Source of the DNA: Halomonas sp. M20
Lineage (GTDB): Bacteria; Pseudomonadota; Gammaproteobacteria; Pseudomonadales; Halomonadaceae
Reading direction: 5' to 3'
DNA: 64,000 nt
Assembly (NCBI RefSeq): GCF_020622265.1
Contig: NZ_JACNMQ010000002.1
Span: 558,001-622,000, forward strand
Under the pieces are notes generated by a model. That model made no database searches, was not told where the DNA came from, and worked only from the letters and a program-made list of their open reading frames with translations. The translations under genes and the position numbers were made by a program. Shown here piece after piece: positions 16,290 to 44,950 of the stretch (positions are counted from its first letter, which is position 1; every line of letters starts with the position of its first letter).

Positions 16290-16808
16290 TCAGTGAGCGG
16301 TGCGAAATGCCTTCAGCGCTTGAGGATCGAGCCCAGTGACTTCGGCGGGCATGTTCAACGATTCCCGGGTTTTTCGTACCCGCAACCGCTCGGCAAGCCG
16401 CTCGCTGTCATCATCCGTGGTGCGTCCATTGAGCTCGTTCAGTTGCTCTATTCCTTGATGATAGAACGCCAGCAGATCCAGTGCGGCAGGATCATGGCGC
16501 TCAAGCCCGACCTTTCGCAGCCTCGATAGATGCGCACTCACGCGTGTTACATGACGCTTGAGCTCCCAGGCATAGCGCTGATCCTGCAACCAGGGTTTTT
16601 GACGCAGTATCGCCACCATGGCACTGGTCGCCAGCAGTCCTAGCAGCACTCCCGCTGCATTCATGGCCAGACTGGAACCAAAACGCGTCGTCAACAGCTG
16701 GGAGAACACCAGTCCAAGAACGACGAACTGAGCCGTCACGCCGATCGTCATGAAACGCGATTTACGCCGAAACTGCTCGGGATCATGATATTCGAAGCAA
16801 AAACTCAT
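16290..16808 (-). CDS. DUF3087 inner membrane protein
   Basis: A 172-residue protein with two membrane helices near the N-terminus (about residues 21-38, TIGVTAQFVVLGLVFSQLL, and 50-66, AAGVLLGLLATSAMVAIL) followed by a long charged helical cytoplasmic part (WELKRHVTRVSAHLSRLRK, LDLLAFYHQGIEQL). This layout fits the DUF3087 family, for which I know no established function. Its ATG overlaps the stop codon of the DAHP synthase gene (ATGA), so it is probably translationally coupled and under the same attenuator. Whether this means a link to aromatic metabolism is inference. Confidence 0.7.
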   Translation of the reverse strand: MSFCFEYHDPEQFRRKSRFMTIGVTAQFVVLGLVFSQLLTTRFGSSLAMNAAGVLLGLLATSAMVAILRQKPWLQDQRYAWELKRHVTRVSAHLSRLRKVGLERHDPAALDLLAFYHQGIEQLNELNGRTTDDDSERLAERLRVRKTRESLNMPAEVTGLDPQALKAFRTAH

Positions 16809-17902
16809 GCGCTGGCGTTATCCTTTGAATCGATACGCAGCCGCTCGGCGGCACGTAAAAGCAGATCGGCTGTGGTGTCCCACCCAAGACAAGCATCGGT
16901 GACCGAGACTCCATAGCGCAGTGCATCCGGATTGAGTGGCTGTTTGCCTTCATGTAGATGCCCTTCCAGCATTACCCCGACCAGGCTGGCATCGCCGGCC
17001 AGGCGCTGCGCCAGCACATCGAGCAACACCTCGCTCTGACGTCGATGATCTTTATGGGAATTTGCGTGACTGCAATCCACCATGATGCGAGGTACAAGAC
17101 CGGCTTCCAGCATCGCACGCCGGCTGGCCCCAACACTGGCACTTTCGTAATTAGGCTGGCCATGACCACCGCGCAATACCAGATGGGTATGAGGGTTGCC
17201 CTGGGTTTCGCGCATGACCGGTCTCCCTTGAACATCCATGGCGAAATGGCACTGAGGATGTGCTGCGGCACGGATGGCGTCAATGGCCACCCCGATGCCC
17301 CCATCAGTGGCGTTCTTGAACCCTACCGCCGCTTCTAGTCCACTGGTCAGTTCGCGATGCACTTGAGACTCGGTGGTACGTGCGCCAATGGCTGCCCAGC
17401 TCAACAGATCCGTGAAATAGGGCGCCACCATGGGTTGCAAGAGCTCGGTGGCGACCGGCAACCCCAGGGCAGCGACATCGCGCATCAGACGTCGGGAGAG
17501 CTGAAGTCCATGAGCCATATCGTCGCTACCATCCAGATGCGGATCGTAGGCAAGTCCTTTCCAGCCCACCGTGGTACGCGGCTTCTCGATATAGACCCGC
17601 ATGACCAGTTGCACCCGATCGGCGATATGCTCGCTCAGTTCCGCAAGCCGATGGGCATACTCCATCGCCGCCCTGGGATCATGAATCGAGCAGGGACCGA
17701 CCACCACCAGCAGACGGTCGTCATGGCCATCGAGAATGCCGCGTACGGCCTGGCGTTGGGCGGTGATCCGAGCGCGCAGCTCAATATCGACCGGTAGCTC
17801 GCGGCGCAGCTCGTCAGGGGTCGGCATTATGCGTTCGTTACTCAACGCTTGATGTGATTCGATAGCGGTCTCGATACTAGGCATTTGTGCGTTCATCTTC
17901 AT
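16805..17902 (-). CDS. 3-deoxy-7-phosphoheptulonate (DAHP) synthase, class I
   Basis: First enzyme of the shikimate pathway, condensing phosphoenolpyruvate with erythrose 4-phosphate. The ATG at 17902 gives 365 residues; in-frame TTG/ATG codons up to 17929 would start inside the terminator region, and the ATG at 17896 is an alternative. Signatures are VVVGPCSIHDPRAAMEYA, MRVYIEKPRTTVGWKG, IGARTTESQVHRE, VDCSHANSHKDHRRQ and GVSVTDACLGWD. These are the metal ligands and substrate-binding residues of the AroF/AroG/AroH family. The sequence does not decide which amino acid inhibits it. Upstream lies a leader peptide rich in Tyr and Trp with a terminator, implying transcription attenuation. The DUF3087 gene overlaps its stop codon. 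Confidence 0.95.
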   Translation of the reverse strand: MKMNAQMPSIETAIESHQALSNERIMPTPDELRRELPVDIELRARITAQRQAVRGILDGHDDRLLVVVGPCSIHDPRAAMEYAHRLAELSEHIADRVQLVMRVYIEKPRTTVGWKGLAYDPHLDGSDDMAHGLQLSRRLMRDVAALGLPVATELLQPMVAPYFTDLLSWAAIGARTTESQVHRELTSGLEAAVGFKNATDGGIGVAIDAIRAAAHPQCHFAMDVQGRPVMRETQGNPHTHLVLRGGHGQPNYESASVGASRRAMLEAGLVPRIMVDCSHANSHKDHRRQSEVLLDVLAQRLAGDASLVGVMLEGHLHEGKQPLNPDALRYGVSVTDACLGWDTTADLLLRAAERLRIDSKDNASA

Positions 17903-17927
17903 GTTTCTCGGCCGGCTCATTGCCAAC

Positions 17928-17984
17928 AAAAACCCCCCGATGGGGTTGCCACCGGAGGGTTCATGCGTGCGATGGAGGCAACCC
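17928..17984 (-). promoter_or_regulatory. Attenuator: terminator / anti-terminator in front of the DAHP synthase gene
   Basis: Read on the minus strand. Terminator: AACCCTCCG (17961-17953) pairs with CGGGGGGTT (17939-17931) with one U-G wobble, followed by a T-run to 17928; the shorter AACCCC / GGGGTT pairing from 17947 is an alternative. Anti-terminator: GGGTTGCC (17984-17977) is perfectly complementary to GGCAACCC (17950-17943), and formation encloses the terminator's 5' arm in its loop. The structures exclude each other. The terminator ends 25 bases before the DAHP synthase start and the anti-terminator arm lies 31 bases after the leader-peptide stop. Confidence 0.7.
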
Positions 17985-18015
17985 TGCTGATTCAGGATGC
18001 GCCTCTTGGTTCAAG

Positions 18016-18159
18016 TCATCTGACGTGGTTCATCGAGACCTGACCGCTGAGCGCATCGCGAGTAAACCAGCGCCAATAGCCTGCCCGATAACATGCACAC
18101 GCACACGCCAGCAATGGCTGAACGCGAATGGCGGTGTAGCTACTGGAAACAGGCAACAT
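18016..18159 (-). CDS. Leader peptide for aromatic-amino-acid attenuation
   Basis: A 47-codon ORF with AGGAG at 18170-18166, six bases before its ATG. Its middle reads Tyr-Arg-Ala-Gly-Tyr-Trp-Arg-Trp-Phe (codons at 18090-18064): two Tyr, two Trp and one Phe within nine codons. This is what a ribosome-stalling leader for an aromatic pathway gene should look like. It lies between a promoter-like site and an alternative-hairpin terminator ahead of the DAHP synthase gene. The end of the ORF (GATGCGCTC, 18057-18049) can also pair with GAGGCGCATC (18005-17996), giving a further hairpin across the stop codon. A tandem Cys-Ala stretch (ACACAC) precedes the aromatic run. I recognise no named homologue; the regulatory role is inferred from composition and position. 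Confidence 0.72.
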   Translation of the reverse strand: MLPVSSSYTAIRVQPLLACACACYRAGYWRWFTRDALSGQVSMNHVR

Positions 18160-18183
18160 GGTCAGCTCCTAAATTTTTCTTCT

Positions 18184-18211
18184 ATCCTACACGGCTTGCC
18201 TGGGTTGGCAA
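18184..18211 (-). promoter_or_regulatory. Promoter for the DAHP synthase leader transcript
   Basis: On the minus strand, -35 TTGCCA (18211-18206), a 16-base spacer and -10 TAGGAT (18189-18184). This would start transcription about 15-18 bases before the leader ATG, a spacing typical of attenuator leaders. It lies in the short gap directly after the 41-codon membrane-peptide gene. Confidence 0.5.
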
Positions 18212-18214
18212 CCG

Positions 18215-18340
18215 TCATTCGAAATACTGTACCCAAACGATGGTTGCAGGCAAGGCGCTCATGCCAATCAGCACCACCAGACCAAGAAAGAGGGACAGGA
18301 AGCCGCTTTTATCCTTGAAGTTGGGATCGTACTCAGCCAC
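18215..18340 (-). CDS. Small single-pass membrane protein, 41 residues
   Basis: A short gene with a GTG start at 18340 preceded by GGAG at a workable spacing of 7 bases. The product is hydrophilic at the N-terminus (MAEYDPNFKDKSGF), then one hydrophobic helix of about 21 residues (LSLFLGLVVLIGMSALPAT), and ends IVWVQYFE. The clear membrane-protein layout and Shine-Dalgarno support a real gene. It sits between fre and the DAHP synthase leader on the same strand. I cannot name a family or function. Confidence 0.65.
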   Translation of the reverse strand: MAEYDPNFKDKSGFLSLFLGLVVLIGMSALPATIVWVQYFE

Positions 18341-18391
18341 GTGGGTATCTCCGTTCGTTGAATAGCATCAGGGGTGAAATATTTTAGCTCA

Positions 18392-19141
18392 TCAATGAGG
18401 ATTCGACGATTCTCGCGGCGCGTAGGAAAAGACATCCGAAAATACGCGCTCGAGCTTGAGTCCCAAGGGCTTCAAGGTATCAATGCAGGCATAGACCATC
18501 CCCGGAGAACCGGACAGATAGACATCGTATTGTGAAACATCCTGCAGATTCGCCGCCAACGCCTGATCGATACGCCCTTGGTGCCCGTATACGCGCTCTT
18601 CCTCGAAGCCTGCCTCGATAGGCGTTTCTGACACTGCGTGAAAAAAGAAGTTGGAATGGGTTTCGGCCCATTCCCGAGCCAGGCTTTCGAGATAGAAATC
18701 CCGACGCTCCCGCACCGCCCACCAGAACGATACCGGCAATGCCTGGTCTGCGACGAGAGCGGCTTCCAGCAGGGCCTTCATCTGGGCAAATCCGGTCCCG
18801 GCGGCAATCAGCAGTAGCGGGCGCGAACTGTCCGGGTCCAAGCGACATTCACCACCAGGCATTCGCACCCTCAATATTCCCGACTTTAGAATCAATTCCC
18901 GCAACCGCTGGGAATTGTCATGCTCCGGCCAGTGCTGAATGTGCAACTCGATGGCGCCATCGCCGCGATGAGCGTTGGCGATGGAAAAAGGCACCCAGAT
19001 GTCACCCTCGAGATTGAGTTCCAGGTACTGTCCCGGGGCATGGGCCATCGCTTCGGCGCGGCCTTCCAGATGTACGCGAAAGACATCCGGGGTCAGGTCT
19101 TCCACCGCGCTCACGTGACAGGTCAGAGTCCTTGCCGTCAT
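18392..19141 (-). CDS. fre: NAD(P)H-flavin reductase (Fre-like)
   Basis: Reduces free flavins with NAD(P)H. It has 249 residues and belongs to the ferredoxin-NADP reductase fold. The N-terminal FAD/flavin beta-barrel contains APGQYLELNLEGDIWVPFSIAN (split here as the PGQYLEL and PFSIAN motifs). The C-terminal NAD-binding domain has LLLIAAGTGFAQMKALLEAAL and DVYLSGSPGMVYACIDTL. It lies downstream of ubiD on the same strand; ubiD-fre adjacency is also seen in E. coli, and reduced FMN is the precursor for the prenyl-FMN cofactor of UbiD. The family is firm, the exact physiological electron acceptor is not. Confidence 0.85.
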   Translation of the reverse strand: MTARTLTCHVSAVEDLTPDVFRVHLEGRAEAMAHAPGQYLELNLEGDIWVPFSIANAHRGDGAIELHIQHWPEHDNSQRLRELILKSGILRVRMPGGECRLDPDSSRPLLLIAAGTGFAQMKALLEAALVADQALPVSFWWAVRERRDFYLESLAREWAETHSNFFFHAVSETPIEAGFEEERVYGHQGRIDQALAANLQDVSQYDVYLSGSPGMVYACIDTLKPLGLKLERVFSDVFSYAPRESSNPH

Positions 19142-44729: not shown

Positions 44730-44774
44730 GGGTGACTCCTGATATGACGGGTTAGGCCTCCACGCACCCCATGG
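44726..44774 (-). promoter_or_regulatory. rpsB leader able to mask its own start codon
   Basis: On the minus strand, CCATGGGGTG (44774-44765) in the leader is complementary, with one bulge, to CACCCATGG (44734-44726), which covers the rpsB ATG. Pairing would hide the start codon. S2 is known to repress its own mRNA through leader structure in gammaproteobacteria; that this pairing is part of such control here is inference. Confidence 0.35.
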
Positions 44775-44950
44775 ATCCGACCGCGCATCGTGGACTGCTG
44801 CAATGAAATGCAACGATAGCGACTACGCAGCACCCGGGACCATGTGACGGTGCATGTGTGTTTTTAAGGCATTTAAGCTCATTGACGCTTGCCCCAATCG
44901 GCTCTACAACTGCGAACGCAGATGCATTGGATTGCAGGAAAGCGCGCGGC

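Follow-up and report, generated by a model that had tools for sequence, protein, structure and literature searches.

Attenuators such as those of the enteric trp, his and pheA systems combine a leader ORF containing regulatory codons, alternative RNA helices and an intrinsic terminator. In the classic trp-type arrangement, the regulatory codons lie inside the first RNA segment, where the stalled ribosome masks it. Attenuation has also been described at genes for DAHP synthase, the entry enzyme of the shikimate pathway. The part of PMC11802643 that concerns the aroR–aroF system of Corynebacterium glutamicum reports an aromatic leader peptide ahead of the DAHP synthase operon, and stalling there raises transcription. 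In Acholeplasma, the relevant passage of PMC8632094 predicts a motif, ‘uORFC-13-1’, upstream of aroF, in which a uORF with one or more Phe codons and an adjoining terminator precede DAHP synthase; the same passage cites an earlier attenuation hypothesis for aroF of E. coli. For Shewanella aroF, the section concerned of PMC2659441 predicts only a structured 5′-UTR, and for the Shewanella leuA leader it predicts an anti-antiterminator, an antiterminator and a terminator, with compensatory changes. Finally, the RNA catalogued by Rfam as ‘Pseudomonas sRNA P15’ (RF00627) was already suspected to act in cis in the lines devoted to it in PMC2527527, which cite Livny 2006.

The locus described here lies in a 64,000-nucleotide stretch of Halomonas sp. 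DNA (the ‘window’), and comprises a DAHP synthase gene preceded by what is probably a ribosome-mediated transcription attenuator, one that switches the gene on when charged tRNA-Tyr, tRNA-Trp or tRNA-Phe is in short supply. A sequence-only reading of the window had proposed such an element, and the promoter, 47-codon leader ORF, Shine–Dalgarno sequence, exclusive hairpins, terminator and gene that it listed all read as claimed, on the minus strand from 18211 to 17896. The promoter is of the sigma-70 type (TTGCCA-16-TAGGAT, 18211–18184), and is followed by the Shine–Dalgarno sequence AGGAG (18170–18166) and by the leader ORF, MLPVSSSYTAIRVQPLLACACACYRAGYWRWFTRDALSGQVSMNHVR (18159–18016). Within the ORF, Y24, Y28, W29, W31 and F32 form an aromatic cluster (YRAGYWRWF, 18090–18064); the cluster had been recognized correctly, its spacing had not, the real order being Tyr-x-x-x-Tyr-Trp-Arg-Trp-Phe rather than Tyr-x-x-Tyr. 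The type I DAHP synthase gene occupies 16805–17896 of the minus strand, with the ATG at 17896 or 17902 as its probable start, and its product matches PF00793 (266 bits), TIGR00034 (439 bits; cut-off 173) and NF009395. A DUF3087 protein gene (16290–16808, minus), which shares its first 4 nt with the end of the DAHP synthase ORF, is perhaps co-transcribed with it. Upstream of the promoter is a 41-amino acid hydrophobic ORF, MAEYDPNFKDKSGFLSLFLGLVVLIGMSALPATIVWVQYFE (18215–18340, minus), with no match in Pfam or NCBIfam; in some other Halomonadaceae, too, the leader is preceded by similar ORFs. Elsewhere in the window, Rfam RF00127 (t44) matches at 44751–44877, minus, with 71 bits.

The promoter pattern by itself is within chance expectation (1 found and 1.5 expected in a pattern scan), and the same kind of scan finds four terminator-like sites at 16500–18800 where 1.7 are expected. 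The leader RNA folds with a z-score of −3.28, and none of 200 shuffles is as stable. Were the element simply the terminator of an upstream gene, accompanied by an ORF that is there by chance, an unremarkable promoter pattern is what one would find; we give this reading next to no probability, because a conserved promoter motif, TTGYCAA...GTGTAGGAT, stands ahead of the leader in all 14 genomes of the genus, the aromatic codons are present in 92 of 92 leaders, and the helices covary. DAHP synthase is present in each of the 14 genomes, with an aromatic leader ORF upstream, and in each the predicted ORF has both the aromatic cluster and a Shine–Dalgarno-like motif. This conservation of promoter motif and leader ORF (14/14), together with double-sided changes in every helix, is why we take the window's element to be real. 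The peptide is another matter. Pairwise comparisons within the window's clade give 23 synonymous and 69 nonsynonymous codon differences; by this measure the leader ORF is, overall, without protein-level constraint, and the codon differences are no proof of translation.

Five RNA segments, here called A to E, follow one another between the aromatic codons and the gene, all on the minus strand, and as judged from their complementarity they form four consecutive helices: A:B and C:D, for antitermination, versus B:C and D:E, for termination. Segment A (GAUGCGCU, 18057–18050) begins 6 nt after the Phe codon UUU, and all eight of its bases pair with B in the window. Segment B (GAGGCGCAUCCUG, 18005–17993) is the partner of A or C, and segment C (CAGGGUUGCCUC, 17986–17975) that of B or D. 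Segment D (AACCCUCCGGUGGCAACCC, 17961–17943) is the 5′ arm and loop of the terminator, a 13-bp hairpin at 17961–17931; segment E (17943–17928) comprises the 3′ arm (17943–17931) and the T-run (17932–17928). Helix C:D pairs GGGTTGCC (17984–17977) with GGCAACCC (17950–17943). A:B is compatible with C:D, and B:C with D:E, and the two sets are mutually exclusive. C:D and D:E both use GGCAACCC, and C:D covaries; we infer that C:D blocks termination.

Covariation was counted in an alignment (A2) of 93 rows, 92 of them distinct, including one spurious reverse-strand row (L129:434–510). The model structure to which it was fitted contained B:C, the stop-codon hairpin and the terminator, but neither A:B nor C:D. 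The hairpin at 18057/17996, which the sequence-only reading had suspected of being its missing link, is helix A:B: 98.5% of its cells are paired, and four of its eight pairs, 53 cells in all, have changed on both sides. Controls slid along the alignment reach 26–62%, and none of 500 shuffles reaches 98.5%. For B:C, 94.5% of cells are paired (7 of 12 pairs and 68 cells changed on both sides); for C:D, 95.3% (3 of 8 pairs, 20 cells); for the terminator helix D:E, 97.6% (8 of 13 pairs); and for the stop-codon hairpin, 91.4% (4 of 4 pairs). None of 500 shuffles attains the observed numbers of changed cells. The numbers of changed pairs are less striking: 10 of 500 shuffles attain the value for A:B, 18 that for B:C and 40 that for C:D. 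The proposal of an aromatic leader and attenuator before DAHP synthase thus holds up in relatives, where aromatic codons and pairings are kept and the pairings covary.

Segment A lies 6 or 7 nt past UUU and is complementary to B in most rows, by way of many different sequences. Examples of A/B pairs are GGUGCGCC/GGCGCACC, GAUGCGCU/GGCGCAUC (the window), GGCGUGCC/GGCACGCC, GGUGUGCC/GGCACACC and, with the two reversed, GGCACGCC/GGCGUGCC. The 21 A/B haplotypes, drawn from 82 rows (10 of the 92 having no 8-nt B to score) and with the offset of 6 or 7 picked by hand row by row (7 in 13 listed loci), match their own partners at 7.67 of 8 positions and swapped partners at 6.88, a sum reached in none of 10,000 permutations; 15 of the 21 pair perfectly and the others at 6 or 7 positions of 8. 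For 18 C/D haplotypes the corresponding values are 7.11 and 6.56, reached in 1 of 10,000 permutations. The reading frame of segment A differs between genera (GVP or RHA), and it is therefore the RNA, not the peptide, that is conserved at this point. This bears on the suggestion that the leader is an arrest peptide like TnaC, in which the nascent chain would itself stall on sensing an aromatic amino acid in free form. In its favor, the leader is short and its aromatic block, close to the C-terminus, is conserved; fixed residues are also needed, however, and across segment A the frame is not kept, and the clade of the window shows free variation of the peptide everywhere but in its aromatic run. 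We regard an arrest peptide as most improbable.

The leader ORF, its aromatic codons, the five segments and the four helices are established as features of sequence; the mechanism that they suggest, and the direction of its response, we infer. When aromatic amino acids are sufficient, the ribosome would pass through A to the stop codon and make A unavailable to B; B:C would then form, followed by the terminator, D:E. In starvation, the ribosome would stall at the Tyr, Trp or Phe codons, just short of A, and A:B would form first. C would thereby be left free to engage, as C:D, both the loop and the upper arm of the terminator as it emerges, and RNA polymerase would read through. The stalled ribosome can leave A free because A begins 6–7 nt past the last Phe codon. 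If starvation is to relieve termination, stalling must favor A:B. In contrast to the trp scheme, the first hairpin would be allowed to form, not masked, during the stall, and read-through is therefore also predicted for a leader that is not translated.

Folding calculations agree with this relay once D is complete. In transcripts ending at 17942, with D complete and E absent, a ribosome stalled at Trp29 gives 8.2 expected pairs for A:B, 9.7 for C:D and 0.0 for B:C; a ribosome at the stop codon gives 11.8 for B:C and 0.15 for C:D; and with no ribosome, A:B and C:D form. In transcripts ending at 17946, where D is incomplete, the result goes against the relay: a ribosome at Trp29 gives 11.6 expected pairs for B:C against 0.2 for A:B, and absence of a ribosome gives 6.2 against 4.0. 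A:B must therefore persist kinetically until D is finished. In the full-length leader of the window, the terminator is the most stable structure in all of the states computed, as would be expected of a kinetic switch. Across 88 loci, stalling at Tyr puts C:D ahead in all 88 and stalling at Trp in 87, again once D is complete. For stalling at Phe, C:D leads in 88 loci with a footprint of 5–6 nt, in 81 with one of 9 nt, and in 45 with one of 10 nt; in the window, a stall at Phe32 yields C:D if the footprint extends no more than 9 nt past the codon, and B:C if it extends 10 nt or more. Sensing of Phe, in these models, depends on the footprint that is assumed. The OFF state is clear in 22–42 of the 88 loci, varying with footprint. 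As modeled, the ON state is general, and the OFF state is well supported only where B:C is strong, for example in the window's clade.

These same calculations provide the case for classic masking, in which the stalled ribosome would cover A, B:C would form and transcription would stop, so that the response is reversed or B:C has some other role. With a rigid footprint of at least 10 nt, a stall at the last Phe codon hides half of A and B:C results in about half of the 88 loci and in the window, and while D is incomplete B:C is the better fold even with a ribosome at Trp29. Masking would, however, shut off the pathway's first enzyme in starving cells. Moreover, wherever A:B can be read, A starts 6–7 nt beyond the last Phe codon and overlaps none of the aromatic codons, and C:D predominates after Tyr and Trp stalls once D is complete. 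We consider masking unlikely.

The element is widespread in the Halomonadaceae. A covariance model (R1) was built from 14 sequences that begin with the last aromatic codons and end with the T-run, and has the stop-codon hairpin, B:C and the terminator as its structure. At E ≤ 0.1 it matches in 250 of 275 Halomonadaceae genomes, a number that includes the 14 used to build it, and in 21 of 24 genera; this is an upper figure, because stray background terminators also score, at E of about 1e-5. Among 86 loci that were picked for spread over genera rather than at random, DAHP synthase adjoins the element at 80, two of which (L078 and L103) are the same place. Six matches (L165, L167 and L169–L172) were dropped as having no DAHP synthase; they are among the weakest. 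Loci with DAHP synthase, the window's genus included, come from 20 of the 24 genera. Alignment of 93 loci gave 92 true rows, the one without a row (L168) having a DAHP synthase hit and, at 1e-5, no match. In 92 of 92 rows, DAHP synthase is downstream on the same strand, at distances of −3 to 406 nt from its extrapolated start (median 231), and in 92 of 92 leaders Phe, Trp and Tyr codons all fall within the 12 codons that end at the last Phe, before segment A. An in-frame start codon with a Shine–Dalgarno sequence was found in 86 of the 92 aligned rows and not in the other six. The leader peptide itself is a poor probe, giving strong matches in only 4 of 57 relatives (E 7e-22 to 7e-7); weaker matches were accepted only if beside DAHP synthase. 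A contig from an Acidobacteria MAG (L093) matches the B–C pattern exactly, whether by chance or through transfer.

Many of these loci have a second aromatic leader ORF between the terminator and the gene. In the window's genus it reads ...GYWRFS.ARSVQSA.S.R... and is found in 10 of the 14 genomes, the exceptions being the window's and those designated G012, G006 and G004. Neither the clade of the window nor the loci that were read from another genus, g4, yielded one. The gap from terminator to gene is less than 60 nt, leaving no room for a second leader, in 13 rows: the window's clade (4), six of genus g4, and L117, L118 and L163. In L043, L041, L074, L225 and their relatives, a second leader (..YYGYWRFSDARSAQSATSGR..GG..RC) with a conserved UGGCGAUUUA lies between the first terminator and DAHP synthase. 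By eye, in the 34 sequences aligned of 89 extracted, it displays interlocked helices (CGGUCGG/CCGACCG and GCCACC/GGUGGC), and no T-run was noticed downstream. Translational, Rho-dependent and pseudoknot control are candidate roles for it.

Beyond the family, a second model (R2) was run over 390 genomes of the order, Halomonadaceae included, and matches 111 of them at E ≤ 1e-4, leaving 279 without a match. The first 17 loci that we looked at (11 from family f43, 5 from f21 and 1 from f20) all have DAHP synthase, as do 15 of the next 20 (f20 5/5, f38 2/2, f39 1/1, f43 3/3 and f21 4/5, the fifth f21 locus, L248, being cut by a contig end). Single matches in f40, f24, f26 and f16 are false, and L237 (an rRNA) and L238–L240 were dropped for want of DAHP synthase. 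The element thus stands upstream of DAHP synthase in six families, Halomonadaceae and five others; the sequence-only reading had called the layout unusual, and for this lineage it is not. Family f39 rests on a single locus with a poor leader (...SWFGYRLR*). Elsewhere, leaders end in ...YFYGYWFSRSSA* (f43), ...FYFGYWFSHWRA* (f21) and ...FFWWFGYGFYFSQSRGRP* (f20). Among 21 genomes of other families, 20 of them with a DAHP synthase match and 26 loci in total, such a leader was found only at L173 and L176, in a scan where L192 and L198 lacked the anchor motif used. Helix A:B was assessed outside the Halomonadaceae on the best row per locus of an alignment (A3) containing many reverse-strand terminator matches; six f20, two f38 and one f43 loci were left out. 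Helices of 5–9 bp are found in f21 and f43 and are individually weak, shuffles reaching their scores in 0–35% of cases; at L243 the best helix is not the A:B one expected, and in f39 A:B fails (82% of shuffles).

The counterpart of this element in f21 and f43 appears to be P15. In leader 1 the RF00627 model takes in the aromatic codons and the stop codon, and beyond them B, C and the stem of the terminator; P15 sits in the same place, upstream of DAHP synthase, with the same anatomy. Its cut-off of 70 bits is reached by 11 of 27 loci scanned, all from f21 or f43, with scores of 70.6–125.6 bits (5 of 14 loci) and 94–111.6 bits (6 of 13 loci). The window, at 14.9 bits, is under this gathering cut-off of 70, as are two f43 loci (64.5 and 59.9) and the Halomonadaceae loci (at most 47), and none of the f20, f38 and f39 loci scanned attains it. 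From the Rfam name, f21 would be Pseudomonadaceae. Rfam files P15 as an sRNA with no stated function, whereas we read it in cis. That it acts instead in trans, lying before DAHP synthase by chance with a terminator that merely ends the sRNA, is in keeping with the Rfam description and with the terminated leader being a short RNA. Yet the P15 model itself includes aromatic codons, stop codon and terminator stem, the element precedes DAHP synthase in six families, its alternative helices covary, and cis action was the suspicion voiced in the P15 lines of PMC2527527. A trans-acting role is, we believe, very improbable. In the open-licence PMC literature, none of the matches listed connects an aromatic leader ahead of DAHP synthase with P15, Halomonas or Pseudomonas, or shows an attenuator before that gene in either genus.

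Attenuation need not be the only control. TrpR has no match in the window's genome, by a search that finds E. coli TrpR when run identically, which speaks for attenuation; the genome encodes two TyrR-type HTH_50 domains, and so repression may also act. It also contains a second DAHP synthase paralogue, of 49% identity, with no leader of this type in the approximately 560 bases upstream.

A broader proposal, to which we would give slightly less than an even chance, is that an ancient five-segment attenuator of inverted logic, in which stalling permits the first hairpin and the untranslated leader is ON, reads all three aromatic amino acids together and governs DAHP synthase across the Halomonadaceae and several further gammaproteobacterial families, Pseudomonas among them. 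‘sRNA P15’ would be its terminated product, and many lineages would add a second aromatic leader ORF, with an interlocked fold of its own, for two-stage control, lost in the clade of the window. The element would give P15, which has no function among the open-licence PMC matches listed, a concrete and testable role, and it suggests that the enzyme at the entrance to the shikimate pathway is commonly controlled by attenuation in a large gammaproteobacterial group for which the E. coli TyrR/TrpR picture would be the default. The relay, with A fixed 6–7 nt beyond the stall codons, would depart from the textbook, and on it a leader that is not translated is predicted to be ON. The element could also offer a handle on aromatic-compound production in Halomonas and Pseudomonas putida.

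How, then, does the window's element compare with what has been described? In Rfam 15, none of the amino-acid leaders (Trp_leader, Phe_leader and others) has a match in the window. With the enteric trp, his and pheA attenuators the element has in common a leader ORF with regulatory codons, alternative helices and an intrinsic terminator; it differs from the trp type in having an odd number of segments, not four, and in the position of segment A, past the codons at which the ribosome would stall. The extra stem of the Shewanella leuA leader, as presented in the section on it in PMC2659441, is open when the ribosome stalls, unlike what is proposed for A:B, and belongs to a different operon. Two further likenesses, drawn from descriptions, are in other phyla. 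The C. glutamicum aroR–aroF system likewise has an aromatic leader before DAHP synthase, but a Phe-Tyr-Phe one that, in the portion of PMC11802643 concerned, responds to Phe and not to Tyr; uORFC-13-1 likewise has a uORF with one or more Phe codons and a neighboring terminator before DAHP synthase, but is a prediction only. The sequence-only reading had thought attenuation of DAHP synthase itself unusual; from the pertinent parts of these two papers, it is in print for Corynebacterium (PMC11802643) and proposed for Acholeplasma (PMC8632094). Because such attenuation is already described, and no earlier connection with P15, Halomonas or Pseudomonas appears among the matches listed, the window's element can be taken as a new form of a known kind of control, and one that brings with it a probable new function for the catalogued P15 RNA.
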